Part shown: positions 1-14,058 of the stretch, in pieces
Numbering within the stretch: position 1 is the stretch's first letter
How the letters are laid out: the number at the start of each line of letters is the position of its first letter
DNA from: an uncultured Faecalibacterium sp.
Lineage (GTDB): Bacteria; Bacillota; Clostridia; Oscillospirales; Ruminococcaceae
NCBI GenBank assembly: GCA_934547065.1
Contig: CAKTEF010000034.1
Coordinates: 1-14,058 of the forward strand
Reading direction: 5' to 3'
DNA: 14,058 bases
The notes under the pieces: generated by a model
What the model was told of the DNA's origin: nothing
Database searches by the model: none
The model's input: only the letters and a program-made list of their open reading frames with translations
Position numbers and translations under genes: made by a program

Positions 1-483
1 ATCGACCCGAAGAACATCCAGCTGATGGAGGACTTCGGCGTGCTGACCAAGGTGGAGATGGAGAGCCGCTACGAAGTTGAGATGGAGCACTACTCCAAGA
101 TCATCAACATCGAGGCCCTGACCATGCTGGAAATGGCCCGTAAGCAGCTGCTGCCCGCTGTCAACGCCTACATGAGCGAGGTTGCCAACACCGCCGCCTC
201 CAAGCTGGCCGTCAGCGAGTCCATCAGTGTGCGCAGCGAGACCAAGGCCCTGACCCGCCTGTCCAACGATGCCGATGCCATGAGCGATGCCATCGACGCG
301 CTGCAGGCCGCTGTGGATGCCGCTGAGGCCATGACCGACGAAAGCGCCAAGGCCGTTTCGTTCCACGATGAGGTGCTGCCCAAGATGGATGCCCTGCGTG
401 CGGCGGCCGACGATGCAGAAACTGTCTGCGGCGAGGATTACTGGCCGCTGCCCAGTTACAGCAAGATGCTCTACTACGTCTGA
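1..483 (+). CDS. glnN: Glutamine synthetase type III (GSIII), C-terminal part
   Basis: This is the 3' end of a gene entering from the left edge; frame 1 is open from the first base to a TGA at 481-483, giving 160 residues. Glutamine synthetase makes glutamine from glutamate, ammonia and ATP in the cytoplasm. The visible part matches the C-terminal region of the long GSIII family (usually about 700 residues), not GSI: a helical stretch beginning around EMESRYEVEMEHYSKI, an Ala-rich helical region, a segment HDEVLPKMDALRAAADDAE, and the family-typical ending WPLPSYSKMLYYV. The catalytic domain lies outside the window, so activity cannot be judged. A terminator follows, and a second, unrelated glutamine synthetase (type I) comes next. 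Codon use is strongly biased (AAG, CTG, GCC), which suggests high expression. Confidence 0.88.
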   Translation: MDPKNIQLMEDFGVLTKVEMESRYEVEMEHYSKIINIEALTMLEMARKQLLPAVNAYMSEVANTAASKLAVSESISVRSETKALTRLSNDADAMSDAIDALQAAVDAAEAMTDESAKAVSFHDEVLPKMDALRAAADDAETVCGEDYWPLPSYSKMLYYV

Positions 484-517
484 TCCTGAATCAAGCATTT
501 CTGGGCTGTAATTTCAT

Positions 518-547
518 TTGACATTCTCCTTTTCCTATTTCTTACAC
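518..547 (+). promoter_or_regulatory. Candidate glnA promoter overlapping the upstream terminator
   Basis: A perfect -35 hexamer TTGACA lies at 518-523. At 17-18 bases spacing there is only a poor -10 (CTTACA/TTACAC, 541-547). If used, transcription would start near 553, inside the left arm of the terminator hairpin (550-557), so the transcript would escape that terminator. The weak -10 keeps this tentative; an activator might be needed. Confidence 0.3.
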
Positions 548-549
548 CA

Positions 550-599
550 GCCTAAAGACCTGTTCCTGCAAAAGGGGCAGGCCTTTAGGCGTTTTATTT
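550..599 (+). terminator. Intrinsic terminator between GSIII and glnA
   Basis: GCCTAAAG (550-557) pairs perfectly with CTTTAGGC (583-590). Inside, either CCTG (559-562) or CCTGC (565-569) can pair with GCAGG (577-581), so two inner folds compete. GTTTTATTT follows. It ends only 16 bases before the glnA start codon, so it either ends the GSIII transcript or acts as an attenuator for glnA. Confidence 0.75.
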
Positions 600-614
600 G
601 AAAGGGAAGCTACT

Positions 615-1934
615 ATGAGCTATTCGACCCAACAGGACATCCTTGATTTTGTAGAGGACAACAACGTCAAATTTGTCCGCTTTGCGTTCTGCGATATCTT
701 TGGCACCCAGAAAAACATTGCGGTCCTTGCCAGCGATCTGCCCAAGGCGCTGGAGGACGGGGTCTGCTTTGACGGCAGCTCCATTGCCGGGTTTATGAAA
801 GTGGAAGAAAGCGATCTGGTGCTCCGGCCCGATCTTTCCACCGTGACCATCCTGCCCTGGCGGCCGACCGAGGGCCGGGTGATGCAGTTCTTCTGCGATG
901 TGGAAAAGCCGGACGGCGAACCGTTTGGCGGCAACTGCCGCGGCTTTTTGCGCCAGATGAGCCGCCGGTTCAAGCGGCTGGGCCTGACCTGCAATGTGGG
1001 TGCCGAGTGCGAGTTCTATCTGTTTGAGAATGATGACCGCGGCCGCCCCACCCGCATCCCCATCGACTTTGGCGGCTATTTTGACGTGGCTCCGCTGGAC
1101 GCAGGCGAGAACCTGCGCCGGGACATCTGCCTGACCATGGAGCAGATGGGCATGGCTCCCCAGCACAGCCACCACGAAAGCGGCCACGGCCAGAACGAGA
1201 TCGACTGCCACCACGCAGGCCCGCTGAAAACAGCCGACAATGTGATGATGTTCAAGCAGATCGTGCGGGCTGTTGCCACCCGCAGCGGCCTGCACGCCAG
1301 CTTTCTGCCCAAGCCCCTGGCAGACCAGGCGGGAAGCGGCCTGCACATCAACCTCTCGCTTTATATGGACAGCCGCAACCTGTTTGAGGGCGACATTGCC
1401 CCGGACAGCATTGCGGGCAGCTTTATGGCCGGTGTGCTGGCCCACAGCCGGGAGCTGACTGCGTTCACCAACCCCCTGCCCAACAGCTACCTGCGCTTTG
1501 GCAGCGACGAGGCCCCCCGTTATGTCAGCTGGAGCCGCCAGAACCGCAGCCAGCTGGTGCGCATCCCGCAGGTCAAGGGCGACAACTGCCGTATGGAGCT
1601 GCGCAGCCCGGACCCCGCCTGCAACCCGTACCTTGCCATCGGGCTGGTGCTGGCTGCCGGACTGGACGGCATTGAAAAGCGGATGGTTCTGCCTGCCCCC
1701 GTCAACATGAACCTGTTCCGCCCGGAGGAGGCCTCCGGCCTGGGGCTGGAAACGCTGCCCGCCAGCCTGGAAGAAGCCGTGCTGGCCGCCGAGGAAAGCG
1801 AATTTCTGCGCAGCGTGCTTCCGGAGGAGCTTTCGCACCGGTACTATGCGGAGGAGCTGAAGCGCTGCACCGCCCTGAAAGCAGCAGCCGACCCGGCAGA
1901 GTATGAGCGCATCCACTACTTCAACGCCATCTGA
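615..1934 (+). CDS. glnA: Glutamine synthetase type I
   Basis: 439 residues, close to the usual GSI length (about 444 in Bacillus). It condenses glutamate and ammonia to glutamine using ATP; GSI forms cytoplasmic dodecamers. Visible motifs in order: beta-grasp N-terminus (about 15-100) with DGSSIAGF at 53-60; metal-binding Glu residues at 131 and 133 (GAECEF) and 188/195 (HHESGHGQNEID); SGLHINLSL near 240; NSYLRFGSDEAP and NRSQLVRIP; and RMELRSPDPACNPYLA near 340. No adenylylation-type C-terminus is seen, which fits the Gram-positive GSI-alpha class. Lys62 occupies the position of Bacillus Arg62, which is involved in glutamine feedback inhibition. The start is supported by GAAAGGGAAG at 600-609. 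The ANTAR regulator follows after 38 bases, so the two are probably cotranscribed. Confidence 0.96.
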   Translation: MSYSTQQDILDFVEDNNVKFVRFAFCDIFGTQKNIAVLASDLPKALEDGVCFDGSSIAGFMKVEESDLVLRPDLSTVTILPWRPTEGRVMQFFCDVEKPDGEPFGGNCRGFLRQMSRRFKRLGLTCNVGAECEFYLFENDDRGRPTRIPIDFGGYFDVAPLDAGENLRRDICLTMEQMGMAPQHSHHESGHGQNEIDCHHAGPLKTADNVMMFKQIVRAVATRSGLHASFLPKPLADQAGSGLHINLSLYMDSRNLFEGDIAPDSIAGSFMAGVLAHSRELTAFTNPLPNSYLRFGSDEAPRYVSWSRQNRSQLVRIPQVKGDNCRMELRSPDPACNPYLAIGLVLAAGLDGIEKRMVLPAPVNMNLFRPEEASGLGLETLPASLEEAVLAAEESEFLRSVLPEELSHRYYAEELKRCTALKAAADPAEYERIHYFNAI

Positions 1935-1972
1935 GCCCACCGCTGGAATGAAAAAAGAAAGGAGCGATCCGT

Positions 1973-2542
1973 ATGGGACGTGCTCTGATCGTCAGCGCGG
2001 GAGCCAGCTCAAATGAGTACCTCTCCGCCCGGCTGGCAGAGCTGGGATACACCCGGCCTCTGATCGTCCCCAGCGGGGCGGAGGCACGGCGGCGGATGCT
2101 GGAATCGGACTTTGAGCTGATCGTGGTCAATGCCCCCCTGCCGGACGAGTTCGGACATGAGCTGTGCGCCAGCGCCGTGGAACAGACCGATGCCGGGGTG
2201 CTGCTGCTGGCCAAAGCGGCGGCGGCCGAGCAGCTGCTGCTGCCCATGAGCGAGCATGGCGTGCTGCTGCTCAGCAAACCGTTTTCCAATACCCTGTTTT
2301 TGCAGGCCGTCCACATCGCCTCGGCCAGCAACCACCGCCTGCTGCGCCTGCGGCAGGAAAACGCCCGGATGCAGGAAAAGATCGCGCAGATCCGGCTGGT
2401 CAGCCATGCAAAGTGCTGTCTGGTGGAGAAAGAACACATGACCGAGGCCGAAGCGCACCGTTACATTGAAAAACAGGCCATGGACACCCGGCGCGACCGT
2501 GCAGAAATTGCACAGGAAATCCTTGATTCTTACGAGGATTAG
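1973..2542 (+). CDS. ANTAR-domain response regulator with pseudo-receiver (putative antiterminator)
   Basis: 189 residues in two domains. Residues 3-115 form a CheY-like receiver fold that lacks key residues: the usual N-terminal acidic pair is replaced (LIVSAG, 5-10) and the phospho-acceptor position reads Asn53 (IVVNAPLPDEFG), while Lys102 (SKPF) is kept. A coiled-coil linker (about 122-140) leads to an ANTAR domain at 130-185, with A146/K147, A161 in TEAEAHRYI, and A169-M170-D171 with R173/R174. ANTAR proteins bind paired short hairpins in nascent RNA and block terminators; AmiR, NasR and EutV are known examples, and I recall a clostridial glnA-nitR pair. Position directly after glnA suggests nitrogen control. 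The start has AAAGGAG at about 1958-1964. Regulation without phosphorylation, perhaps by contact with glutamine synthetase, is inference. Confidence 0.9.
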   Translation: MGRALIVSAGASSNEYLSARLAELGYTRPLIVPSGAEARRRMLESDFELIVVNAPLPDEFGHELCASAVEQTDAGVLLLAKAAAAEQLLLPMSEHGVLLLSKPFSNTLFLQAVHIASASNHRLLRLRQENARMQEKIAQIRLVSHAKCCLVEKEHMTEAEAHRYIEKQAMDTRRDRAEIAQEILDSYED

Positions 2543-2551
2543 GTCTATAAT
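2523..2551 (+). promoter_or_regulatory. pyrG promoter
   Basis: TTGATT (2523-2528), a 17-base spacer and a perfect TATAAT (2546-2551). The -35 lies inside the last codons of the ANTAR regulator gene. Transcription should begin near 2557-2560, leaving a leader of about 125 bases before pyrG. Confidence 0.72.
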
Positions 2552-2589
2552 GTCAGTTTGGAAATGTCCTGTTTCAATCGTTCTATGGC

Positions 2590-2627
2590 ACCCTTTTCCG
2601 CCCGGCCGGAAGCTGTGCGGAGAGGGT
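2590..2627 (+). other. Strong hairpin in the pyrG leader
   Basis: Left arm 2590-2601 (ACCCTTTTCCGC) pairs with right arm 2617-2627 (GCGGAGAGGGT): 11 pairs including one G-U, with one bulged T. The loop contains the palindrome CCGGCCGG (2602-2609). No T-run follows (TAAAATTT), so this is not a standard terminator. It may stabilise or regulate the pyrG mRNA; the role is unknown. Confidence 0.5.
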
Positions 2628-2683
2628 AAAATTTGGGAAAGAATCGGATCAGAAAAAAGAAAATTAGAGGAGGAACGTAACCT

Positions 2684-4315
<1,632 letters not shown>

Positions 4316-4339
4316 TCGGACCTGATCCCGTAATCTGAG

Positions 4340-4390
4340 AAAAGAGCAGCCTCACGGAGGATTTTTCCCGTGAGGCTGCTCTTTTGTGTT
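4340..4390. terminator. Bidirectional terminator between convergent pyrG and the epimerase gene
   Basis: An 18-bp perfect inverted repeat: 4340-4357 pairs with 4368-4385, with a 10-base loop. The arms begin AAAAGAGCAG and end CTGCTCTTTT, giving a T-run on both strands, and TGTGTTTTG continues on the + strand. It serves both converging transcripts. Confidence 0.9.
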
Positions 4391-4399
4391 TTGATCCGC

Positions 4400-5287
4400 T
4401 CAGCGTGCAAAGGTTGTGCTGAGGGTGGTGCTCCAGCTTTGGCCCGGTTCCAGGCGGGCGGCAGCGGCGCGCTGTTCCCACTCCTGCGGGTCGGTGACCG
4501 CACCGGGCAGCGACTGCCACGGCTCGATGCAGACAAAACGCACCGGCTTTGCCGGGGCCGACCAGATCAGCGCATACGGGAACGCACCCACCTCGCATAC
4601 GATGTGGCGGCCGGTATCCTTTTCGTAGATGCCCAGCGTTTTGGTGCGCAGGCCCGCCATGCAGAAGCTGTCATTTTCAAACAGGTCGTCCGTGAGCGGG
4701 ATGGCGGAAACATTTTTCCACTGGTAGCCGCACTTCCCGCTGAGCAGGCCGCCCGCACCGGCATCCAGGATCATGGGGCTTTCGGGCTGGTCAAAGCGGA
4801 ACTCGTAATCCGTGGTGGTATGGCCGGCATCAAAGGGGATGTTGAACGCCGGATGATACCCGATGCCAAATTGCAGCGGTTCTGATGCGCCGGCCGGATT
4901 TTCCACGGTCAGGGTGTGGTGGACGGTCTTGCCGTCCAGGCGGAACGTGCTGGTCAGGACAAAATCAAAGGGAAAGCGCTCGGCCTTGAGCGTCTCGTCG
5001 GAGCGCAGTTCCAATTCGATGGTATCGCCCGCAGCCCGGAGCAGGGTGTGCTCCAGATCGCGCGCAAATCCGTGCTGACCGCCGGGGTAGGACGTTCCGC
5101 CGTGGGAAAAACTGCCGCCGGGCAGCTTGCCGGTCCAGGGAAACAGGATCGGCGCATGGCGTTTCCAGACAGCCGGGTCGGCCTGCCAGAGCAGCTCCTC
5201 CCCTGCCGCATTTTTCACGCTGACCGCTTCGGCGCCGTGGGAATCCACGGTCAGGGTCAGAAATTCGTTGTGAATGGTCGCCTGCAT
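4400..5287 (-). CDS. Aldose 1-epimerase family protein (LacX-like)
   Basis: 295 residues of the galactose mutarotase-like fold, which interconverts alpha and beta anomers of sugars or sugar phosphates. Visible family features: RHAPILFPWTGKL (43-55), HGFARD with His72 and Arg76, the second catalytic His145 in GYHPAF, and the general base Glu255 in CIEPW. The length and the FPWTGKL and HGFARD pattern fit the LacX-like branch more than classical GalM, so the substrate is unknown; no galactose genes are nearby. The start is supported by AAAGGAGAG just upstream. It lies 22 bases after the dehydrogenase gene and is the last gene of the minus-strand run. Confidence 0.88.
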   Translation of the reverse strand: MQATIHNEFLTLTVDSHGAEAVSVKNAAGEELLWQADPAVWKRHAPILFPWTGKLPGGSFSHGGTSYPGGQHGFARDLEHTLLRAAGDTIELELRSDETLKAERFPFDFVLTSTFRLDGKTVHHTLTVENPAGASEPLQFGIGYHPAFNIPFDAGHTTTDYEFRFDQPESPMILDAGAGGLLSGKCGYQWKNVSAIPLTDDLFENDSFCMAGLRTKTLGIYEKDTGRHIVCEVGAFPYALIWSAPAKPVRFVCIEPWQSLPGAVTDPQEWEQRAAAARLEPGQSWSTTLSTTFAR

Positions 5288-5309
5288 GGTAAACTCTCCT
5301 TTTCTCCGT

Positions 5310-6272
5310 TCAGGGGTTCACGATATGTTCGCCGTTTCCGGCCAGGAACGTGCGCAGGTTCCGGGTGGTGATCTCCATCAGATTCTGCAGCGCCTCCTTG
5401 GTCGTCCACGCAATGTGCGGGGTGAGCAAAGCGTGCGGCTCGGCCCGCAGGGGACTGTCGGCGGGCAGCGGCTCGGTGGCAAAGGCATCGGCTCCATAAA
5501 AGCCCAGCTGCCCGCTGTGGAGCGCAGCCGCCACGGCGGCTTCGTCCACCAGCGCACCCCGCGCGGTGTTCAGCAGGATGGCCCCCGGCTTCATCTTTGC
5601 CAATGCGGCGGCATCCACCATGCCCCGCGTCTGGGGCGTGGCCGGGCAGTGCAGGCTGACCACATCGCTCCGGCGCAGCAGGGTGTCCCACGGGACAAAC
5701 TCCACCCCGTCGGCCTCGTATTCGGGCCGCACCGTGCGGGTGCAGGCCAGCACCCGCATCCCGAACGCCCTGGCGATGCGGGCCGTCTGCCGCCCGATGC
5801 TGCCATAGCCGAACACGCCAAACGTCTTGCCGTACAGCTCCATCTGGGGCAGCAGTGCAAAATGCTCCGGAATCTTCAGCTGCCAATATCCGTTTTGGAC
5901 GGTCCGGTAGTACCGTTCCGCGCACTGGCAGATGGCCAGCAGCAGGCTGAACGTCATCTGTGCCACACTGTGGGTGGAGTAGCCGGGCACATTGGCCACG
6001 GCCACCCCATGGCGGCGGCAGGCTTCCAGGTCCAGGTTGTCCGTCCCGGTGGCAATGATGCCCACCCATTTCAGGTTGGGGCACTGCGCCAGGATGGCTT
6101 CGTCCATCCGGCATTTGTTCAGCAGAACCAGCTCGGCATCCCCGATGCGGGGTGCAATGTCCTGATAGGCCGTACGGACATAGCTGGTGGTATCCGGCAC
6201 CAAGGCCCGGATGCCAGACCAGTCCAGGTCGCCCTCCTGCATGACATAGCTTTCCAGAATGACTGCTTTCAT
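5310..6272 (-). CDS. D-isomer-specific 2-hydroxyacid dehydrogenase (glycerate dehydrogenase/hydroxypyruvate reductase-like)
   Basis: 320 residues. The family reduces 2-keto acids to D-2-hydroxy acids with NAD(P)H. The catalytic domain spans about 1-100 and 288-320, around a Rossmann domain with GYGSIG (155-160). The catalytic set is complete: Arg238 (NTARGALVDE), Glu267 (ATEPLP) and His286 (TPHIAW). After the second Rossmann strand the sequence reads ACTRT (176-180) without the acidic residue typical of NAD-specific members, so NADPH use is possible (inference). The ATG at 6272 is chosen over one nine codons upstream because GGAGG lies properly spaced before it and it sits one base after the sirtuin stop, which indicates translational coupling. 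The closest group looks like glycerate dehydrogenase; the true substrate is not determined. Confidence 0.9.
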   Translation of the reverse strand: MKAVILESYVMQEGDLDWSGIRALVPDTTSYVRTAYQDIAPRIGDAELVLLNKCRMDEAILAQCPNLKWVGIIATGTDNLDLEACRRHGVAVANVPGYSTHSVAQMTFSLLLAICQCAERYYRTVQNGYWQLKIPEHFALLPQMELYGKTFGVFGYGSIGRQTARIARAFGMRVLACTRTVRPEYEADGVEFVPWDTLLRRSDVVSLHCPATPQTRGMVDAAALAKMKPGAILLNTARGALVDEAAVAAALHSGQLGFYGADAFATEPLPADSPLRAEPHALLTPHIAWTTKEALQNLMEITTRNLRTFLAGNGEHIVNP

Positions 6273-6273
6273 C

Positions 6274-6999
6274 TCAATCCTCCAGTACAACATCCTCACT
6301 CAGCACCTGGCCGATGGGCTTTGCAATGCACAGATCCGCCTGCTGATCGGCCCCGGTGGGCTGCATGTTGATGACCACCAGATGCCGCCCCCGGAAATAC
6401 CGGATCAGCCCGGCCGCCGGGTAGACCACCAGACTGGTGCCGCCGATGATCAGGGTATCGGCCTTGCGGATCGCCGCCACGGCCCCGGAGACAACGCTCT
6501 CGTCCAGGCCCTCCTCATACAACACCACATCCGGCTTGACGATGCCGCCGCACTTGGGGCAGCGGGGCACCCCGGTGCTGTTGGCAATAAAATCCACATC
6601 GTAAAAAGCACCGCAGTCCACGCAGAAATTGCGCAGAGTGCTCCCGTGCAGCTCATACACCGTTTTGGAGCCGGCTGCCTGATGCAGGCCGTCGATGTTC
6701 TGGGTGACGACCGCTTTCAGCCTGCCCTCCCGCTCCAGCTTGGCCAGCCGCAGGTGGGCCGCATTGGGCTTTGCCCCTTTTACAATGAGCTTATCGCGGT
6801 AAAAGCGGTAGAACTCCTCCGGGTTTTGCTCCCAGAACGTATGGCTCAGGATGGTTTCCGGCGGGTAATCGTAGGTCTGGTGATACAGCCCGTCCACGCT
6901 CCGGAAATCCGGGATACCGCTTTCGGTGGAAACGCCCGCACCGCCAAAAAAGACGATGCTGCCGCTTTCCGCAATGATTTTTTCCAGTGCAGGAACCAT
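6274..6999 (-). CDS. NAD-dependent protein deacylase (Sir2 family)
   Basis: 241 residues, a typical single-domain bacterial sirtuin (CobB/SrtN type). It removes acyl groups from lysines, using NAD and releasing nicotinamide and O-acyl-ADP-ribose. Motifs: GGAGVSTESGIPDFRS (19-34), TQNIDGLH (99-106), catalytic His118 (YELHGS), a zinc site of Cys126/129/147/150, and GGTSLVVYPAAG (186-197). All catalytic and zinc residues are intact. The ATG at 6999 gives the normal sirtuin N-terminus; an upstream in-frame extension would run into nnrD and shows no homology. The only ribosome site is GAAAGGGG, about 11 bases upstream, which lies in the right arm of the preceding terminator hairpin. The stop is one base from the dehydrogenase start. 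Confidence 0.94.
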   Translation of the reverse strand: MVPALEKIIAESGSIVFFGGAGVSTESGIPDFRSVDGLYHQTYDYPPETILSHTFWEQNPEEFYRFYRDKLIVKGAKPNAAHLRLAKLEREGRLKAVVTQNIDGLHQAAGSKTVYELHGSTLRNFCVDCGAFYDVDFIANSTGVPRCPKCGGIVKPDVVLYEEGLDESVVSGAVAAIRKADTLIIGGTSLVVYPAAGLIRYFRGRHLVVINMQPTGADQQADLCIAKPIGQVLSEDVVLED

Positions 7000-7001
7000 A
7001 A

Positions 7002-7081
7002 GAAAAAACGCCCCTTTCCGGCAGGAAGATCTGTGTGTTCTTCTGTTCCAAGTATAACACAAATCTGCCGGAAAGGAAGCG
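7002..7081 (-). terminator. Large hairpin terminator after nnrD, overlapping the sirtuin ribosome site
   Basis: CCTTTCCGGCAG (7013-7024) and CTGCCGGAAAGG (7065-7076) are a perfect 12-bp inverted repeat, extended outward by CGC/GCG and inward by an imperfect ATTTGTGT/ACACAGAT pairing. On the minus strand the hairpin is followed by TTTTTTCTT (7007-6999) and then the sirtuin ATG. The + strand side is followed by TTTGTTTT, so it may work both ways. Confidence 0.75.
7051..7056 (-). promoter_or_regulatory. Candidate -10 for sirtuin operon inside the terminator loop
   Basis: On the minus strand TATACT (+ strand AGTATA) lies in the apical part of the hairpin. The -35 at the right spacing (CTTCCT) is poor. 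A start near 7044 would leave the left arm out of the RNA, so the terminator could not form and the ribosome site would be free. Confidence 0.35.
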
Positions 7082-7099
7082 TTTGTTTTGGCTGGTGTT

Positions 7100-7996
7100 T
7101 CAGCGGCCATTCTCCGCAAACAGGATGCCCAGCTCATGAAAAAGATCGTGGGGCAGCATCCCGGCTTCCCCGTGGCTGGCCGCAGCCCGGTCAGCCGCCG
7201 CACCGTGGAGCCAGACTGCGCAGGCTGCCGCTTCAAAAGCAGGCAGGCCGCAGGCCAGCAGAGCCGATGTCATGCCCGCCAGCACATCCCCGCTGCCCCC
7301 GCGGGAAAGGCCGGGGCCGCCTGTGGGATTCACCGCACAGCGGCCGTCCGGGGCCGCGATGACGGTATGGGCTCCTTTGAGCACTACCACGGCGTTCCAC
7401 GCTTTGGCAAAACGGCTGGCTATCCCCTCGCGGTCGGCGTTGATCTGCGCCGCCGGGAGTCCGGTCAGGCGGGCCATCTCACCCGGATGCGGGGTCAGGA
7501 TCAGCTCCCCTGCCGGGCGGGGCAGGGGATTGTTTGCGGCCAGCAGGTCTGCGGCGGCATTCAGGCCGTCGGCATCCAGGACCGCGCTGCCCCCAAAACC
7601 GGGCAGCAGGGTCTGCACCAGCGCCCGCGTCTCGGCGGCGCGGGCCGCACTCTGGGCCGTGTAACCCAGGCCTGGGCCCGCCAGCAGCACGGTGGCTTTC
7701 TGGCGCCGGATGCGGGGCAGGCTTTGCGGGGCAATGCCGCCCTCGGCCCCCGCTTCACAGGGGCAGAGACAGCACTCCGGCAGGCGTGCAGTCACCGCTG
7801 CCAGCACCGGCTCCACACCGGCCAGCGTGACGATGCCCGCGCCGGTGCGCAGGGCTCCCTCCACGGCCAGCGCCGCCGCACCCCGGTAGCAGGCACTGCC
7901 CGCCACGACCAGCACCGCCCCGAACGTTCCCTTGTGGGCATCGCGGGGGCGGGGCTTGATGTGCTGCCAGACAAAATCAGATGTGGTGGTGAACAT
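7100..7996 (-). CDS. nnrD: ADP-dependent NAD(P)H-hydrate dehydratase
   Basis: 298 residues. The enzyme repairs damaged hydrated NADH/NADPH (the S form of NADHX/NADPHX) using ADP. Ribokinase-like fold with family motifs in order: KGTFGAVLVVAGSACYRGA (22-40), GPGLG (107-111), DADGLN (141-146), TPHPGEM (168-174), VVLKGAHTVIA (204-214), GGPGLSRGGSGDVLAGM (226-242) with the catalytic Asp237, and LHGAAAD (263-269). The N-terminal epimerase (NnrE) domain found fused in many bacteria is absent, so only the dehydratase half is present here. The start has AAAGGAG six bases upstream. It is followed by a hairpin terminator and a sirtuin gene, another NAD-linked function. Confidence 0.93.
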   Translation of the reverse strand: MFTTTSDFVWQHIKPRPRDAHKGTFGAVLVVAGSACYRGAAALAVEGALRTGAGIVTLAGVEPVLAAVTARLPECCLCPCEAGAEGGIAPQSLPRIRRQKATVLLAGPGLGYTAQSAARAAETRALVQTLLPGFGGSAVLDADGLNAAADLLAANNPLPRPAGELILTPHPGEMARLTGLPAAQINADREGIASRFAKAWNAVVVLKGAHTVIAAPDGRCAVNPTGGPGLSRGGSGDVLAGMTSALLACGLPAFEAAACAVWLHGAAADRAAASHGEAGMLPHDLFHELGILFAENGR

Positions 7997-8013
7997 AGGC
8001 TTCTCCTTTGTAC

Positions 8014-8146
8014 AACCTCTCAGTCGGGCTTGCGCCCGCCAGCTCCCCTAGTAGGGGAGCCTTTGGCATAGAGATGAGGCTTTACCCGGCTGCCAAGGCC
8101 TCTCCTATTAGGAGAGGTGGCATTGCGAAGCAATGACGGAGAGGTT
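8014..8146. repeat. Palindromic intergenic repeat (MITE-like)
   Basis: A 133-bp element with ends AACCTCTCAGTC (8014-8025) and GACGGAGAGGTT (8135-8146), inverted with one mismatch in 12. Inside are GCTCCCC-TAGT-GGGGAGC type palindromes (8042-8060), CCTCTCCTATTAGGAGAGG (8099-8117), CATTGC-GAA-GCAATG (8121-8135), GGGC-TT-GCGCCC (8026-8037), and longer arms CTTTGGCA (8061-8068) and TGCCAAGG (8091-8098). The layout is that of small non-autonomous mobile or palindromic repeats; I recall similar ones from Faecalibacterium and relatives. It contains no coding sequence. Its right end touches the stop codon of the GTPase-NYN gene and its left end lies just before the nnrD ribosome site. Confidence 0.75.
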
Positions 8147-10746
8147 TAATCCGTCTCCCCCTGTAAAAACGTTCGGATCTCCTTTTCCGCCTCCTGCACT
8201 TCTTCGTGGAACATGCGGGCGGAGACGCGGAGGGCACCGTGGCCCAGGATGATGACCTGCTCCATGCCGTCGGAGGTGGCCACGCGGACCCGCCGCCCCT
8301 TGCCGATCTCGTGGGTGACATGCTCAATGAACATGTCCGCCGTTTCGGCTTCCTTGGTATAGACGACATGGATGTTATGATACTGCTCGATGCTGCCGGG
8401 GCTGCCCGGCACCCGGTAGGCATCGAACACCAAAATCAGAACGCATTTTTTGAAGCCCTGATAGTTGCACAGAACGTCCATCAGCCGGTGGCGGGCGGCA
8501 TCCAGGCTCTGCTTGGACAATGCGTTCAGCTCGTCCCAGGCAAAGATGATGTTGTAGCCGTCCACCAGCAGGTATTCCGGCTGGATCTCCCACTGCTCGG
8601 CGTTGAAATCCGGGCGTTCCCTCTTCTGGGTGGGGCGGAACGCCGCCAGCGGGTCACGCTTGATGGGGCCGTAGGTCTGCTCAAAAATTTTCAGCAGCTC
8701 AGCATCCTCTTCCAGCGTGGCGCGGTAGGCCGCCATCCGGCGGGGGCGGGTCTGCACCGTCTCCTCCGGGCGGACCGTTTTGCCCCAGCCGCTGTCCACA
8801 TGCATGTGGCTCCGCACCTGGTCCCAGGGCACCACGAACCCGGCCCCGTGGGAGCAGAACACCGAGTCCGCCGGGTTGTCCAGATCGTGCTCCGGCTCAT
8901 ACCCGATGGCTTCGATCACCTGCCGGGCGTTGTGGCAGGGACGGTAGCCGTCCAGACTCAGGCTCAGGTGTCCCCTGCCCCGCGTATAGCCTACCACCTC
9001 CATGGGGTAGTTCTGCATCGCGGCCGTGGGGGCCGTGCCGGTCAGGATCGCGGTCTGGCCGTCGGAGGAGGTCTGGGGCGGGTCAAAGCCGCCGCCCATG
9101 TTCTGGATGTCGTTCATGGCGCGGCCCACGTTTTCCGCAGGCAGTTCCAGCCGAAACGCATACCACGGCTCCAGCAGCTGGGTCTTGTGGATCTGGTTTG
9201 CCATCATCAGGCCCTGGCGCACGGCGCGGTAGGTGGCCTGGCGGAAATCCCCGCCCTCAGTGTGCTTGAGGTGGGCCCGGCCCGCAATCAGCGTGATCTT
9301 TACATCCGTCAGCGGCGAGCCGGTCAGCACGCCCAGGTGCTGCTTTTCCTCCAGATGGGTCAGCACCAGCCGCTGCCAGTTTTTGTCCAGCACTTCCTCC
9401 CGGCAGTCGGCGGCAAACTGCAGCCCGCTGCCGCGCGGCAGCGGTTCCAGCTTGAGATGCACCTCGGCGTAATGGCGCAGGGGCTCGTAGTGGCCCACGC
9501 CCTCAATGGCTTCCGTGATGGTTTCCTTATATAAAATGCCGCCGGGGCCAAAGCTCACATCCAGGCCGTACCGCTCCGCCAGCAGGCTCTTGAGCACTTC
9601 CAGCTGGATCTCGCCCATCAGGTGGACATGGATCTCGGCCAGCGTCTCGTTCCACACCACATGGAGCTGCGGTTCTTCCTCCTCCATCCGGTGGAGCCTG
9701 CCCAGCGCCGCATGGACATCGGCACCCTCCGGCAGCAGCACCTGATAGCTCAGCACCGGTTCCAACACGGGCAGGTCGCCGTCCTGCTCGGCCCCCAGGC
9801 CCTGGCCGGGACGGGCCTTGGTCAGGCCGGTCACCGCACATACCTGGCCGGGGCCGATGCTCTCAGCCAGCGTATATTTCGCCCCGGAGTACAGCCGCAG
9901 CTGGTTTGCCTTTTCGGCCCAGGGCTCGCCGTCGGTCTCTCCGGTGAGCTGGGCCTTGACTCTGAGTTCTCCGCCGGTCACGCGCAGCCAGGTCAGGCGG
10001 GTGCCCTGCTCGTCCTGACTGACCTTGAACACCCTGGCTCCAAAGGCATCCAGCGCCGGGGCCGCGCGGGTATCGCGTTCCAGGCCGTCCAGCAGCGCAT
10101 CCACGCCGTCCAGCCGGAGCGCCGCACCAAACCAGCACGGGAACACATGCCGCCGGGCAATGGCCGGGACAAGGTCGGCATCGGTCAGGGTGCCGGTGTC
10201 CAGCACCCGCTCCATCAGGCGCTCGTCACACACGGCCAGCGCTTCGTCCCGCTGGGCCCGGTCTGCGCCAAAATCCACAAAGCCTTCGCCCAGGCGGCGG
10301 TTCAGCTGTTCCAGCAGTGCGGCCCGCTCCATGCCGGGCAGGTCCATCTTGTTCACGAACACGAACGTCGGGATGTGGTACCGCCGCAGCAGCCGCCAGA
10401 GCGTCTCGGTGTGGCTCTGCACCCCGTCGGTCCCGCTGATGACCAGCACGGCGTAGTCCAGCACCTGCAGCGTGCGCTCCGTCTCGGTGGAAAAATCCAC
10501 ATGGCCGGGGGTGTCCAGCAGGGTGATCTCCGTGTTTCCCACCGTGAGCAGGGCCTGTTTTGAAAAAATGGTGATGCCGCGTGTCTTTTCCAGCGTATCG
10601 GTGTCCAGGAACGCATCCTTGTGGTCCACCCGGCCCAGCTTGCGGATGGCACCGGCCCGGTAGAGCATCGCCTCCGAAAGAGTGGTCTTGCCCGAGTCCA
10701 CATGCGCCAGAATGCCCACCACCAGATGCTTGCGTGCTGTTTCCAT
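8146..10746 (-). CDS. EF-G/TetM-like ribosomal GTPase fused to a YacP/Rae1-type NYN nuclease domain
   Basis: 866 residues. The N-terminal two-thirds (1 to about 650) is an EF-G/Tet-type translation factor: G1 AHVDSGKTTL (14-23), switch RGIT (56-59), G3 DTPGH (78-82), G4 NKMD (132-135), EF-G domain II from about 235, domains III-V from about 330, including GHYEPLRHYAEVHLKLEP (418-435). The domain IV tip reads AHLKHTEGGDF (491-501), without the Ser-Pro-Val of tetracycline protection proteins. After a linker (about 650-720) comes a complete NYN domain of the YacP type (724-850), with acidic residues Asp729 (DGYN), Asp775 (FDAYRV), Asp804 (EAETADMF) and Asp826 (TSDG). YacP/Rae1 of Bacillus cuts mRNA in the ribosomal A site. 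The fusion suggests a ribosome-acting GTPase that delivers a nuclease; this is inference. TAAGGAGG lies 7 bases before the start, overlapping the upstream gene's stop. Confidence 0.93.
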   Translation of the reverse strand: METARKHLVVGILAHVDSGKTTLSEAMLYRAGAIRKLGRVDHKDAFLDTDTLEKTRGITIFSKQALLTVGNTEITLLDTPGHVDFSTETERTLQVLDYAVLVISGTDGVQSHTETLWRLLRRYHIPTFVFVNKMDLPGMERAALLEQLNRRLGEGFVDFGADRAQRDEALAVCDERLMERVLDTGTLTDADLVPAIARRHVFPCWFGAALRLDGVDALLDGLERDTRAAPALDAFGARVFKVSQDEQGTRLTWLRVTGGELRVKAQLTGETDGEPWAEKANQLRLYSGAKYTLAESIGPGQVCAVTGLTKARPGQGLGAEQDGDLPVLEPVLSYQVLLPEGADVHAALGRLHRMEEEEPQLHVVWNETLAEIHVHLMGEIQLEVLKSLLAERYGLDVSFGPGGILYKETITEAIEGVGHYEPLRHYAEVHLKLEPLPRGSGLQFAADCREEVLDKNWQRLVLTHLEEKQHLGVLTGSPLTDVKITLIAGRAHLKHTEGGDFRQATYRAVRQGLMMANQIHKTQLLEPWYAFRLELPAENVGRAMNDIQNMGGGFDPPQTSSDGQTAILTGTAPTAAMQNYPMEVVGYTRGRGHLSLSLDGYRPCHNARQVIEAIGYEPEHDLDNPADSVFCSHGAGFVVPWDQVRSHMHVDSGWGKTVRPEETVQTRPRRMAAYRATLEEDAELLKIFEQTYGPIKRDPLAAFRPTQKRERPDFNAEQWEIQPEYLLVDGYNIIFAWDELNALSKQSLDAARHRLMDVLCNYQGFKKCVLILVFDAYRVPGSPGSIEQYHNIHVVYTKEAETADMFIEHVTHEIGKGRRVRVATSDGMEQVIILGHGALRVSARMFHEEVQEAEKEIRTFLQGETD

Positions 10747-10758
10747 CTTCCGGCCTCC

Positions 10759-11178
10759 TTACAACAGGCCGGCCAGCAGGGCCGCTGCCACCAGCGGCAG
10801 GCCCAGCACCAGGTTCGACAGCATGCTGCAATAGATGCGCTCCTCCGGCTCCAGCTCCTCGAACGAAACGATTTTTTCGTCGGCATAGTCGATGATGGAG
10901 CGGGTGGCGTGGAACGTTTTCTTTTTGCCCTGGCCCTTGAACTGCTCCAGCAGGTGGTGGATGGTCACGCCGTCCAGCCGCAGATAATCCACCCAGGCAA
11001 AGATCAGCAGCACGATCCCGCACAAAAAGCCCGGAGCCTCCCACATGGTAAAGGTGTGATCGCTGAGGTAACGGTCCCACAGCAGCATCAGCACCGCTAC
11101 AATGGAGACACGGGTAACGGTCTTATATAAAATAGGATGGAACATGTAGCGCTTGTACATGTTTTTCAGCTTTTTCAT
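10759..11178 (-). CDS. Small membrane protein, three predicted helices, unknown function
   Basis: 139 residues, not recognised. A basic N-terminus (KKLKNMYKRY) is followed by hydrophobic segments at about 24-38, 48-66 and 121-139, the last ending exactly at the C-terminus. Between the second and third lies a charged, probably cytoplasmic stretch (67-118) with QFKGQGKKKTFHATR and EELEPEERI. The ATG at 11178 is chosen over one eight codons upstream because AAAGGAG precedes it at good spacing and a basic start suits a membrane protein. Its stop codon TAA is part of the TAAGGAGG ribosome site of the GTPase-NYN gene 12 bases downstream, so the two are almost certainly cotranscribed and may be translationally coupled. 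A role in placing or controlling the GTPase is possible but unproven. Confidence 0.72.
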   Translation of the reverse strand: MKKLKNMYKRYMFHPILYKTVTRVSIVAVLMLLWDRYLSDHTFTMWEAPGFLCGIVLLIFAWVDYLRLDGVTIHHLLEQFKGQGKKKTFHATRSIIDYADEKIVSFEELEPEERIYCSMLSNLVLGLPLVAAALLAGLL

Positions 11179-11216
11179 GGCGGAAGCTCCTTTTGCAATC
11201 AAGCAGTATTCATTTT

Positions 11217-11245
11217 ATTGTAGCATGTTTTTATGAAAAAAGATA
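11217..11245 (-). promoter_or_regulatory. Candidate promoter of the membrane protein/GTPase-NYN operon
   Basis: On the minus strand a -10 TACAAT (+ strand ATTGTA, 11217-11222) with only a weak -35 (TATCTT, + strand 11240-11245) at 17 bases. The start would fall near 11210, about 30 bases before the gene. Confidence 0.4.
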
Positions 11246-11268
11246 GTAGCCCGCACAGCCGGATTGTT

Positions 11269-11445
11269 TTCCGCGTGGGCTTTGAGTGGGTCATGAACGC
11301 CTACAAGAACGAGGCCAACAACACCTTCAATTACGACAAGCGCAGCACGGACGGCACCCCCGATGAGAACTGGAACAAGGCCATCGCCAACAAGGCATTC
11401 CGCCAGTGCTTCTCCAAGGGCCTGGAACTGTCCAAGTTTTACGCC
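11269..11445 (+). pseudogene. Relic of a peptide ABC transporter substrate-binding protein gene with internal deletion
   Basis: The frame reads FRVGFEWVMNAYKNEANNT and then directly FNYDKRSTDGTPDENWNKA onward to KFYA. The first 19 residues match residues 147-165 of the intact binding protein at 12515 (14 identical) and the next 40 match residues 352-391 (30 identical). The 186 residues between are missing, an in-frame loss of 558 bases. Similarity stops on both sides: no signal peptide, no lipobox, and no ribosome site before the ATG at 11233 (open to TGA at 11470-11472). The divergence shows it came from a paralogue rather than a recent copy. It is probably not functional. Confidence 0.7.
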
Positions 11446-11468
11446 CACTCCATTTTTATTATGACCTA

Positions 11469-11496
11469 TTGAATTTTGGGCAAATCGTGCTATACT
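11469..11496 (+). promoter_or_regulatory. Promoter of the toxin-antitoxin operon
   Basis: TTGAAT (11469-11474), a 16-base spacer and TATACT (11491-11496), followed by the AT-rich TATATA and the AAAGGAG ribosome site of the antitoxin. The antitoxin-toxin complex usually represses such promoters; no clear palindromic operator was seen. Confidence 0.6.
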
Positions 11497-11517
11497 ATAT
11501 ATAAAGGAGTGAGCAGC

Positions 11518-11784
11518 ATGGCAAAAGTATCTACCAGCATTTCTCTGGATTACGATGTCAAGCGCCAGGCGCAGGAGCTTTTTTCTGACTTGGGGCTCGA
11601 CCTTTCCACAGCGATCAACATTTTTTTGAAGCAGTCCATCCGGGACGACGGCTTTCCCTTTGCGATCCGCCGCGAAACACCCAACGCTGTGACGCAGGCT
11701 GCCATTGACGCTGCCCTCAAGGATGAGGACCTGCATGGCCCCTATGACAGTGTTGCCGACCTGATGGAGGCCCTCAGTGCTTAA
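11518..11784 (+). CDS. dinJ: RelB/DinJ-family antitoxin
   Basis: 88 residues. The N-terminal part (MAKVSTSISLDYDVKRQAQ) has the ribbon-helix-helix pattern of RelB/DinJ antitoxins, with LGLDLSTAINIFLKQSI (about 24-40) as the DNA-binding dimer helices; the C-terminal half (about 50-88) would wrap and inhibit the toxin. Family members bind their own promoter and repress it. The ATG at 11518 is preferred over one 14 codons upstream because AAAGGAG lies eight bases before it and the family N-terminus starts there. The gene overlaps the toxin start by 8 bases. Confidence 0.9.
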   Translation: MAKVSTSISLDYDVKRQAQELFSDLGLDLSTAINIFLKQSIRDDGFPFAIRRETPNAVTQAAIDAALKDEDLHGPYDSVADLMEALSA

Positions 11785-12055
11785 ACCGGAATTCACCAGC
11801 CAGTTCAAAAAGGATTATAAGCTTGCAGTCAAACGCGGCTGTGACCCCAAAAAGTTCGAGGCCGTGGTCACACTGCTCTGCGCAGAGCAGCCCCTGCCGG
11901 AAAAGTACCGTGACCACGCCCTGACCGCTTCCCGTAACGATCAAGGTGTGCGGGAATGCCATATCCAGCCGGACTGGCTTCTGGTCTATCAGGTAGTGCA
12001 GGAAACACTGATCCTTAAACTGATCCGTACCGGGACCCATAGTGACCTGTTTTAA
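11777..12055 (+). CDS. yafQ: YafQ-family toxin (mRNA interferase)
   Basis: 92 residues, the usual size for the RelE/YafQ fold. YafQ cuts mRNA in the ribosomal A site. The residues known to matter in E. coli YafQ have counterparts: His47 (DHALT), His62 and Asp66 (ECHIQPDW), His88 (TGTHSDLF) and the terminal Phe92, so the toxin looks intact. Translation starts at GTG (11777), 8 bases inside the end of the antitoxin gene, with GGAGG (11766-11770) as ribosome site within the antitoxin frame; this enforces coupled, lower-level synthesis. A terminator follows directly. Together with dinJ it forms a self-contained module between a decayed and an intact peptide-binding protein gene. Confidence 0.92.
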   Translation: MLKPEFTSQFKKDYKLAVKRGCDPKKFEAVVTLLCAEQPLPEKYRDHALTASRNDQGVRECHIQPDWLLVYQVVQETLILKLIRTGTHSDLF

Positions 12056-12069
12056 TTTTTTGTTTTTTC

Positions 12070-12112
12070 AACAGCGGGCGCGATCTGCAAAGCGGATCGC
12101 ACCCGCTGTTTT
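12070..12112 (+). terminator. Terminator of the toxin-antitoxin operon
   Basis: AACAGCGGGCGCGATC (12070-12085) pairs with GATCGCACCCGCTGTT (12095-12110), 15 of 16 positions, with a 9-base loop. A short TTTT ends the right arm. It starts 15 bases after the toxin stop codon. Confidence 0.75.
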
Positions 12113-12142
12113 AGAATATAAAGCAGCCAGCAAAGCAAGGCG

Positions 12143-12208
12143 GCCGACAGGTGTTCTCTTGACAAGAACAATTTCAGTTGTTTTGTCTGCGGCTTTTGTT
12201 GTTAATTT
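12143..12208 (+). other. Second hairpin with T-rich tail, in the 460-base gap before the binding-protein gene
   Basis: GACAAGAACAA (12161-12171) pairs with TTGTTTTGTC (12178-12187), ten pairs with one bulged G and a 6-base loop; outer GCCG/CGGC can close it. TTTTGTTGTTAATTTT follows, so it may be a backup terminator. The rest of the stretch from 12113 to 12282 is AT-rich and shows no gene. Confidence 0.35.
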
Positions 12209-12282
12209 TCCTGCACTCTTTACTGTGCAAAAGCGAATAAATTTCATCTTTTCTTCCGACAGTTCTTTCTTTTTTGAAGTTC

Positions 12283-12309
12283 AAGCTGTCTGTCCTCCAT
12301 TGACAGCTT
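12283..12309 (+). promoter_or_regulatory. Candidate operator overlapping the -35 of the binding-protein promoter
   Basis: A perfect 8-bp inverted repeat, AAGCTGTC (12283-12290), 11 bases, GACAGCTT (12302-12309). The right arm covers the -35 hexamer (12300-12305), so a bound dimeric protein would block RNA polymerase. No candidate regulator is visible in the window. Confidence 0.4.
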
Positions 12310-12328
12310 ACTCATTTAATGATATAAT
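12300..12328 (+). promoter_or_regulatory. Consensus promoter of the peptide-binding protein gene
   Basis: TTGACA (12300-12305), 17 bases, TATAAT (12323-12328): both hexamers are perfect sigma-70 consensus. Transcription should begin near 12335, giving a leader of about 180 bases before the gene. Confidence 0.88.
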
Positions 12329-12363
12329 ACGGAGCGTGTTAAGGTTTTGCGGGAGGAGCACAG

Positions 12364-12501
12364 ATGCAGACAGAGGGGTCTGTTTCTGCGCTTTTTTGTA
12401 TTCCCCAGCAATACAGGGGAGGATCAAAGCTTTCCGCGAAGGAGTGGGAAAAGCAGTACACCGTGTACTGCACCATGGACCGTAGCACGGAAACTATTTA
12501 G
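12364..12501 (+). CDS. Possible 45-residue upstream ORF (leader peptide) of the binding-protein gene
   Basis: The ORF begins ATG at 12364 with GGAGG seven bases upstream (12352-12356) and lies wholly on the transcript from the consensus promoter. It encodes MQTEGSVSALFCIPQ and onward to MDRSTETI and ends in TAG (12499-12501), whose last two bases begin the GGAGGA ribosome site of the next gene. I recognise no family. Codons such as AGG, GGA and TCA are unlike the strongly biased codons of the gene behind it. The last base of its ATG is the first base of a terminator hairpin, which suggests a regulatory role for its translation. It could also be a chance frame in a structured leader. Confidence 0.42.
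   Translation: MQTEGSVSALFCIPQQYRGGSKLSAKEWEKQYTVYCTMDRSTETI
12366..12397 (+). terminator. Intrinsic terminator (attenuator) in the binding-protein leader
   Basis: GCAGACAGA (12366-12374) pairs with TCTG (12379-12382) and TCTGC (12385-12389), nine pairs with a two-base TT bulge and a GGGG loop, followed after GC by TTTTTT (12392-12397). It lies only about 30 bases from the predicted transcription start and starts at the G of the upstream ORF's ATG. Confidence 0.65.
12429..12490 (+). other. Additional leader hairpins before the binding-protein gene
   Basis: GCTTTCC (12429-12435) can pair with GGGAAAAGC (12446-12454). GCAGTACA (12453-12460) and TGTACTGC (12464-12471) form an 8-bp hairpin with a 3-base loop. 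CCGT (12480-12483) pairs with ACGG (12487-12490). The first two share bases 12453-12454 and are mutually exclusive. No known riboswitch was recognised. Confidence 0.4.
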
Positions 12502-12514
12502 GGAGGATACTACA

Positions 12515-14058
12515 ATGAACATCAATCACGAGTCTCATGCAATCAGCCGCCGCAGCTTTCTGAAAGCTTCCGGTGTCGTTGGTGCCGCCGGCATCCTGGC
12601 AGCCTGCGGCGGCAGCTCCAACAGCGGCTCTACTGCTGCTTCCTCCGGCGCTACCAGCGCTCCCAACACCACCGGCGCTACCCCGCTGAAGGAGTTCATC
12701 TCCTGGGAGAGCACCAACCGTGAGCTGGAAAGCTGGAACATGCTGTACAGCCAGATGGCTTCCGACATGAACGTCGTCACCAACCTGTGGGAAGGCCTGC
12801 TGAGCTTTGACTGCTACGGCAAGGCCGTTCCTTCCGTGGCCAAGGAGTGGAGCCACAATGAGGACTCCTCCGTTTGGACCTTCAACCTGCGCGACGATGT
12901 GGACTGGGTGGATGTCAACGGCGAGGTCAAGGCTCACCTGACTTCCAAGGACTTCCTCGTGGGTCTGGAGTGGGTGCTGAACGCAGCCAAGAACCAGGCC
13001 AACAACACCTCCATGCCCAGCGAGACTCTGGTAGGCGCTGCTGACTACTACCAGAAGACCAGCGACATGGGCGACGCTGCTGCCGACCTGACCTACGAAG
13101 ATATGCTGGCCGCCGGTGTGGGCGTTGAGGCTACCGATGATTACACTCTGGTCTTCACCTGCAAGGATCCCTGCCCGTACTTCGATACCGTGGCTGCTTA
13201 CACCAGCTTCTATCCCGTCTCTGAGGATCTGATCACCGAGCTGGGCGTTGAGGGCTTCCGCGCCTGCGACTACACCAACATGTGGTACAATGGTCCGTAT
13301 GTGGTGGAGGAGTTCATCAGCCAGAACACCAAGAGCTACATCCCCAACCCCAACTACTATGGTGCAGACGATGTGTCCCGCTTCGACCGCTTCACCGTTA
13401 CCATGATCAGCGACGGCACCGTTACCTTCCAGCTGTACCAGAACCGTGAGCTGGACGAGATGGATGTGGGCGAGAGCACCCTGACCACTATCCAGGCCGA
13501 TCCTTCCAGCGAGTACAACGATCAGCTGTGCGAGAAGCGCCCCAAGAAGTACAGCTATCAGATGCACTTCAACTACCAGAAGAACAACGAGGACGGCACC
13601 CCCGATGACAACTGGAACAAGGCGATTGCCAACACCGCTTTCCGTCAGTGCTTCTACAAGGGCCTTGAGCTGACCAACTGGTATGCACGTACCAACAAGA
13701 TCAACCCCCTGAAGTGCGAGAACGACTTCTACACCATGCCCGGTGTCTGCTACAACACCAAGGGTGAGGAGTACACCACTCTGGTCGCCAAGGAGATGGG
13801 TCTGGACGGCGAGGCTTACGATGGCAAGACCATGAAGCGTCTGCGCGCCAACAACGGCGACATCGCTGACCTGAAGAAGCAGGCAATGGACGAGCTGAGC
13901 GCCGTTGGCGTTACTTTCCCTGTCCACGCTGCTTACTACATCATCGCCGGCAACTCCACCGCTCTGGACAGCGCAACCGTCCTGAAGCAGTGCTTCACCG
14001 ACAGCTTCGGCGATGACTTCATCGTGCTGGACATCAAGACCTACGTCTCCTCCATCAC
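12515..14058 (+). CDS. Peptide ABC transporter substrate-binding lipoprotein (SBP family 5), Tat-type signal, partial
   Basis: The first 514 residues; the gene runs off the right edge. Family 5 (OppA/DppA-like) proteins capture peptides or similar solutes outside the membrane and pass them to an ABC permease. The signal peptide has a twin-arginine motif SRRSFLK (11-17), a hydrophobic stretch, and a lipobox LAAC with the lipidated Cys31, then a Ser/Gly/Ala-rich linker (32-57). The mature part shows family features: LWEGLLSFD (91-99), VPSVAKEW (105-112), FNLRDDVDW (123-131), GPYVVEEF (260-267). A strong GGGAGGA ribosome site precedes the ATG. Codon use is very biased (AAC, ACC, TCC, AAG), as in highly expressed genes. 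The permease genes are probably downstream. Confidence 0.92.
   Translation, partial: MNINHESHAISRRSFLKASGVVGAAGILAACGGSSNSGSTAASSGATSAPNTTGATPLKEFISWESTNRELESWNMLYSQMASDMNVVTNLWEGLLSFDCYGKAVPSVAKEWSHNEDSSVWTFNLRDDVDWVDVNGEVKAHLTSKDFLVGLEWVLNAAKNQANNTSMPSETLVGAADYYQKTSDMGDAAADLTYEDMLAAGVGVEATDDYTLVFTCKDPCPYFDTVAAYTSFYPVSEDLITELGVEGFRACDYTNMWYNGPYVVEEFISQNTKSYIPNPNYYGADDVSRFDRFTVTMISDGTVTFQLYQNRELDEMDVGESTLTTIQADPSSEYNDQLCEKRPKKYSYQMHFNYQKNNEDGTPDDNWNKAIANTAFRQCFYKGLELTNWYARTNKINPLKCENDFYTMPGVCYNTKGEEYTTLVAKEMGLDGEAYDGKTMKRLRANNGDIADLKKQAMDELSAVGVTFPVHAAYYIIAGNSTALDSATVLKQCFTDSFGDDFIVLDIKTYVSSI

Follow-up and report, generated by a model that had tools for sequence, protein, structure and literature searches.

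The closest described relatives of the gene considered here are the tetracycline-resistance (Tet) proteins of ten clostridiales species, which, in the part of the account by Atkinson (2015) drawn on here, are stated to have acquired a YacP-like NYN RNase domain; a possible novel resistance mechanism via the RNase activity was suggested there, and rRNA and tRNA maturation was cited as the proposed role of the YacP-like domain (PMC4342817). The architecture is thus known since 2015. The YacP homologue Rae1 is characterised, in the excerpts used, as acting on mRNA during translation (PMC10632193, PMC10100781), and Pro509 of TetM is reported, likewise in excerpt, to contact C1054 (PMC8161019). An experimental test of the function of such a fusion was not found in the open-licence literature. 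The preliminary description of the present DNA knew of no described function; the architecture is already in print with a proposed resistance role (PMC4342817, in part). The gene under study lies in a 14,058-nucleotide stretch of DNA from an uncultured Faecalibacterium sp. (contig CAKTEF010000034.1, positions 1 to 14,058, assembly GCA_934547065.1), the whole of which is called the window, and joins an EF-G-like translational GTPase to a YacP/Rae1-type NYN nuclease domain. New here are the replacement of free Rae1 by the fusion, the separation of the fusion GTPase from the TetM/TetO/TetW clade, and a linker motif common to the fused proteins. The fusion is read, with about as much confidence as doubt, as carrying a Rae1-type nuclease to paused ribosomes by means of its GTPase, so that the mRNA there would be cut.

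The open reading frame (ORF) occupies the minus strand from 10746 to 8146 and is complete, with 866 codons; the plus-strand frame contains stops. The preliminary description had already joined both halves in one frame at 8146..10746, the strand being left unstated, and had placed the G1, DTPGH and NKMD motifs and the four acidic residues of a complete YacP/Rae1-like NYN domain at positions where all of them were found. In the Pfam scan of the 866-amino-acid (aa) product, five domains exceeded the curated cut-offs (GTP_EFTU, EFG_III, EFG_IV, EFG_C and NYN_YacP), while EF-G_D2 (domain II) reached 22.2 bits, below its cut-off of 27. With domain II recognised by fold, the G motifs and the EF-G domain order are those of an EF2-family translational GTPase. 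The parts of the gene are as follows.

8146..10746, minus strand: the fusion gene (EF-G-like translational GTPase, C-terminal domain, linker and YacP/Rae1 NYN domain), ORF of 866 aa
10078..10731, minus strand: GTP-binding domain (PF00009, GTP_EFTU), residues 6-223, Pfam E 9.7e-48
9547..9762, minus strand: EF-G domain III (PF14492, EFG_III), residues 329-400, by Pfam
9199..9537, minus strand: EF-G domain IV (PF03764, EFG_IV), residues 404-516, by Pfam
9241..9282, minus strand: domain IV tip loop GRAHLKHTEGGDFR, residues 489-502, with K494 at the TetM Pro509 position
8923..9180, minus strand: EF-G domain V (PF00679, EFG_C), residues 523-608, by Pfam
8779..8922, minus strand: subfamily C-terminal domain, residues 609-656, with a SVFCxHGAG-type motif
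8575..8778, minus strand: linker, residues 657-724, of low confidence in the structure model at 657-676 and 703-721, with a predicted helix at 670-692
8668..8700, minus strand: linker motif ELLKIFEQTYG, residues 683-693, from the motif count in fused proteins
8164..8571, minus strand: YacP/Rae1 NYN nuclease domain (PF05991), residues 726-861, with D729, D775, D804 and D826, by Pfam

The NYN half matched PF05991 with an E-value of 2.4e-48 (164.7 bits against a cut-off of 24.6, profile positions 1-138 of 166), and the B. subtilis YacP structure, PDB 5mq9, matched it in sequence (E 1.5e-23), with D729, D775, D804 and D826 aligned to D7, D53, D81 and D104 of the 5mq9 chain, as counted off the alignment. 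These four residues, which we take to be catalytic, are strongly kept: D775, D804 and D826 are invariant in 36/36 fused and 24/24 free NYN domains, and so is D729, at which the search pattern itself demanded D or N. In an AlphaFold2 model of the protein (mean predicted local distance difference test 82, predicted template modelling score, pTM, 0.60) the domain is well formed at about 725-863, save for 828-832. In the NYN tree, from which two fused domains missed by the pattern are absent (L162 and L163, with VDAYN and VDSYN), 21 of the 24 free domains form one clade (100), and 35 of the 36 fused ones cluster with two free domains, L142 (genome G228) and L144 (G244). A single capture of the NYN domain appears likely from this tree, though unproven, because that cluster is supported at 48 and the remaining fused domain, L161, belongs to neither group. 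The two free domains within it are possibly detached from a fusion or derived from the pre-fusion lineage.

The survey covered 293 Clostridia genomes, that is, the class of G001 (a Lawsonibacter metagenome-assembled genome), with class names read from organism titles and genomes requested at a completeness of at least 90, the per-genome values not being printed. A profile of the C-terminal domain (window protein residues 570-652, 24 sequences), which separates the GTPase subfamily from EF-G, gave subfamily matches of 143 to 56 bits, the next ones starting from 32. By this measure, the subfamily occurs in 125/293 genomes and is fused in 104, about a third, so that the expectation of the preliminary description that the fusion occurs in other clostridia, usually under tetracycline-resistance names, was borne out, relatives being often annotated so. 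In 91 of the 104 fused calls, the NYN match lies beside the GTPase match on the same strand, seven of these having frames below 780 codons, some at contig ends, and one, G254, having the domains in different open frames; the other 13 calls combine an open frame of at least 780 codons with an NYN match somewhere in the genome, and the NYN domain was present in the four of them that were fetched, while nine rest on frame length. The GTPase is unfused in 21 genomes (22 matches, of which that in G225 is a broken remnant); G126 holds two unfused copies (L119, L125).

YacP domain matches were found in 192/293 Clostridia genomes, 191 above the cut-off, and in 74 they occur without the GTPase. Among the 104 fused genomes, 100 have one YacP match and four have two, the second of which scores 21 bits, below the cut-off, in three; G302 is the sole fused genome with a genuine second, free YacP. 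The fusion thus replaces free Rae1 in the Clostridia carrying it, because it is the only above-cutoff YacP domain in 103/104 of them, which fits a Rae1-like job. The 21 genomes with unfused GTPase are divided into 14 with a separate YacP and seven with none. In a further genome set, three members of which overlap the 293, all 14 fused genomes hold exactly one YacP, the fused one; of five unfused, Neobacillus, Intestinibacter and Collinsella have a free YacP and two Bifidobacterium genomes have none. No fusion was found among the 200 Bacilli genomes, where the GTPase occurs in 20 (frames of 650-705 codons) and YacP in 195, including all these 20, or among the 99 Coriobacteriia, where the GTPase occurs in 21 with YacP elsewhere in each genome and YacP is present in 99/99. 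In Actinomycetia, the GTPase was found in 1/148 genomes, the Bifidobacterium query genome itself.

The GTPase half carries AHVDSGKTT from residue 14, DTPGH at 78-82 and NKMD at 132-135; K20, D78-H82, N132, K133 and D135 are invariant in the 35 proteins counted as fused, and G19, T21 and T22 are kept in 34/35. Residues 1 to about 620 correspond to EF-G structures, many of them ribosome-bound, in Foldseek and VIA-align, the VIA-align rows spanning residues 2-618 only. The domain IV tip has the consensus HxKHT(E)GGDFR in the GTPase subfamily; H492 is found in 34/35 proteins counted as fused and, likewise, His in 11/11 EF-G. K494, at the TetM Pro509 position, is Lys in 35/35 proteins counted as fused and in 26 of 27 counted as unfused, L163 sitting among the latter though fused in fact. 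The same position in 19 further unfused Bacilli proteins is K in 6, E in 9, Q in 3 and P in 1, the sole Pro being that of L205 (AHHPETKGGDF). Against the NCBIfam model tet_protect (cut-off 775), the window protein scored 386 bits and seven subfamily members 370-436, whereas TetM (880) and TetW (819) exceeded the cut-off; the NCBIfam EF-G model gave 250 bits against 659.4.

In a tree of 77 proteins, the GTPase subfamily (bootstrap 98) stands apart from a Tet clade (100) composed of TetM, TetO, TetW and a Paenibacillus relative (L030 inside), Tet(Q), TetB(P) and OtrA being absent from the tree. One 80-locus set contributed 19 loci of the family, 11 of EF-G and, as the outgroup, L030; L022 and L028 (partial) were extracted and omitted from the alignments, and L029 and L031 (partial) and other EF-G-like loci were unused. 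L159 and L162, in which no G motif was found, were dropped, and L163 appears there as unfused though fused. By score, clade and tip loop, the fusion GTPase falls outside the usual Tet proteins; the intact G motifs of the EF-G/TetM-like factor named in the preliminary description were confirmed.

The two halves are connected by a long linker: the C-terminal and NYN motifs lie 98-113 residues apart in 28/37 proteins, and 92 at the shortest. The motif E-L-x-x-I-F-x-x-T was found in 32 of the 37 fused proteins (0.15% in shuffled linkers), with close variants in the other five, the pattern having been set after viewing the sequences: a first, narrower version matched 19/37 and the loosened one 32/37. 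It was found in 0/27 proteins counted as unfused, which mostly end near the motif point and include one truncated fused protein, L159. In appearance, the motif is more a docking helix than a passive tether.

The conservation of the join is also evident from the same five Pfam domains in all of the best 120 of 7999 scored relatives, which are close ones (identity 75-100%). The ratio of nonsynonymous to synonymous substitution rates (dN/dS), taken from a single pair, the window fusion and L004 (protein 86% identical), is 0.15 for the whole gene and 0.05 to 0.23 across the domains, the two most constrained parts being domain IV (0.049) and the NYN domain (0.078), followed by values of 0.088 for the C-terminal domain and 0.12 for residues 670-702; the first linker, at 0.75 over 19 codons, is nearly unconstrained. 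Purifying selection acts on both halves of the fusion. An assembly accident or chance join is ruled out by the domain conservation in the best 120 relatives and by dN/dS.

EF-G-type factors insert domain IV into the A site. The EF-G-like domain IV and the Rae1 domain probably compete for this site, and the GTPase and the nuclease would therefore act in turn or on different ribosomes. In the proposed mechanism, the GTPase part, like EF-G and TetM, would bind paused ribosomes at the factor site and the empty A site; after domain IV moves out, the tethered Rae1 domain would cut the mRNA within the A site or next to it, and GTP hydrolysis would reset or release the factor. With the long linker, a single protein might manage both steps in succession: the GTPase part would leave on GTP hydrolysis or shift aside, and the nuclease would then enter and cut. 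The fusion would perform in these Clostridia the job of free Rae1 in Bacillus. We infer ribosome binding, mRNA as the target and the order of events, and the rescue or mRNA-quality interpretation of the preliminary description is partly supported. More tentative, possible rather than probable, is the extension by which a separate GTPase subfamily gives a Rae1-type nuclease access to the A site of paused ribosomes: GTPase and nuclease would be two proteins in Bacilli and Coriobacteriia, but a single self-contained one, having replaced Rae1, in much of Clostridia.

Several findings weigh against a nuclease delivered by its own GTPase. The model does not fix the NYN position relative to domain IV (pTM 0.60, floppy linkers). 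Since related genomes do not count as independent samples, the mutual exclusion of fusion and free YacP may partly reflect shared descent, and no p-value is given. In 7/21 unfused Clostridia and in two Bifidobacterium genomes the GTPase has no YacP match beside it in the genome and therefore has a job without the nuclease, and YacP occurs without the GTPase in 175/195 Bacilli. No widely shared neighbour family was found by ORF clustering of the window and 23 loci, in which ORFs overlapped by longer antisense ones are masked. In the 77-protein tree, the unfused proteins of Clostridia and Bacilli fall for the most part into one clade (97), and the fused ones into another of weak support (58), inside which four unfused proteins nest, so the nuclease can be lost. 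Since unfused Ligilactobacillus, Bifidobacterium and Collinsella proteins are placed within the fused clade, next to the group of the window protein (100), these lineages probably lost the nuclease, perhaps after transfer. One unfused gene (L002, 4992-6926) lies on a Ligilactobacillus salivarius megaplasmid, adjoining rpsN and a putative metal homeostasis gene.

The main rival explanation, serious though on the whole unlikely, is a protection factor against tetracycline or another A-site drug, with the NYN domain adding RNase activity to resistance, as proposed by Atkinson in the part of the 2015 account used (PMC4342817) and as the names of relatives (TetM/TetW/TetO/TetS family) would have it. 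In Bacillus toyonensis, according to the excerpt cited, the tetracycline minimal inhibitory concentration falls from 16 to 1 ug/ml when a chromosomal TetM-like gene (Btoyo_0322; CP006863.1, 307023-308966) is deleted, and the gene permits B. subtilis growth at 32 ug/ml, although it is weakly expressed in susceptible strains (PMC5209696); its product, 647 aa as counted from the coordinates, is similar in length to 19 fetched unfused members from Bacilli (641-662 aa). In Bifidobacterium animalis, an EF-G/TetM-domain gene, 'putative tet(P)' (BALAC_RS06365), rises under acute tetracycline, in the portion of the source used (PMC6238047). Both genes are possible unfused members of this subfamily. Primers for Btoyo_0322 matched nothing among the loci fetched, the plasmids, the viral contigs or the 299 genomes of one order that were searched, and neither of two protein searches named a B. 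cereus group member among its best 120. Drug protection is further opposed by Lys at the Pro509 position in all 35 proteins counted as fused, by the low tet_protect scores of the seven members, by the clade separate from TetM/TetO/TetW, and by the presence of the fusion in about a third of the sampled Clostridia genomes. If the two genes do belong, the GTPase may also clear tetracycline-stalled ribosomes, in which case protection against the drug and relief of pauses could be the same activity.

It is rather improbable that the fusion serves only to co-express two halves with separate jobs, of which the GTPase would assist in translocation or pause relief as an accessory factor and the NYN domain would act on free RNA. 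Each half does occur alone (the GTPase unfused in 21 Clostridia and 20/200 Bacilli, YacP in 195/200 Bacilli), and the first linker is nearly unconstrained, but the linker motif, strict or as a close variant, is present in all 37 fused proteins examined, and a free YacP stands beside the fusion in just 1/104 genomes. Cleavage of rRNA or tRNA, on or off the ribosome, in maturation or under stress, was the role first proposed for YacP-like domains, as cited by Atkinson (PMC4342817, in part), and it has little probability here, the characterised homologue Rae1 acting, by the excerpts used, on mRNA in translation (PMC10632193, PMC10100781).

The neighbourhood was considered separately. Some neighbour families recur in two or three loci only, and seven window neighbours used as queries against the 23 loci matched only L004, the closest relative, for three: a 147-aa protein, an NAD(P)H-hydrate dehydratase and a sirtuin. 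Conserved operon partners were accordingly rejected. The 147-aa protein, encoded at 10759-11202 (minus strand), 12 bases upstream of the fusion gene, is membrane-like by eye, has no Pfam or NCBIfam match at E 0.001, and has its homologue only in L004 among the 23 loci. The window also contains a RelB-type antitoxin (11476-11784, plus strand) and a YafQ/RelE-type mRNA-interferase toxin (11777-12055, plus strand) with an 8-base overlap, and an ANTAR-domain regulator (1973-2542, plus strand) directly after a gene that by eye resembles a glutamine synthetase (615-1934, plus strand). The fusion is found also in two GenBank scaffolds named 'Bacteriophage sp.', L003 and L004 (MT835514, MT835563), which look mislabelled because the surrounding genes look like bacterial housekeeping ones (by eye gltX, rsmH and glpK in L003). 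A mobile origin was rejected, with no relative in viral contigs.

If the more tentative extension, with a separate GTPase subfamily that opens the A site, is true, the fusion would be a translation factor carrying its own mRNA cutter, with GTP hydrolysis coupled to mRNA cleavage at the ribosome. We know of no factor established as recruiting Rae1 to paused ribosomes, or as a partner that it needs, and a natural fusion in the place of Rae1 names the unfused GTPase as a candidate partner. Many 'tetracycline resistance' labels in gut Clostridia may mark a housekeeping mRNA-quality factor, or else intrinsic protection factors may indeed form a large reservoir; either answer bears on gut resistomes.

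Compared with the known systems, the window gene belongs to the clostridial Tet-NYN proteins of Atkinson and has the same architecture; however, these are classed there as Tet proteins, while score, tip loop and tree separate the GTPase from TetM/TetO/TetW here, and the replacement of Rae1 and the linker motif do not appear in the part of that account used (PMC4342817). TetM, TetO and TetW themselves are alike in the five-domain GTPase layout (27-29% identity), but the fusion lacks their YSPVS/Pro509 tip loop, falls below the tet_protect cut-off, and has an extra SVFC-type C-terminal domain and an extra NYN domain. With EF-G, the fusion has in common the fold along residues 1-620 and the tip His, yet it scores under the EF-G cut-off and bears extra C-terminal domains. 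The unfused 'translation factor GTPase family protein' of Bacillaceae, Clostridia, Collinsella, Bifidobacterium and Ligilactobacillus is of the same subfamily, with the C-terminal domain, present in fused and unfused members, of the same SVFCxHGAG type and the same GGDFR loop, but without the NYN domain and the linker motif. Finally, Rae1/YacP of Bacillus subtilis (PDB 5mq9) shares the domain family and the four acidic residues; free YacP relatives are mostly frames of about 170-200 codons, whereas the fusion carries the NYN domain as the C-terminal domain of a GTPase.

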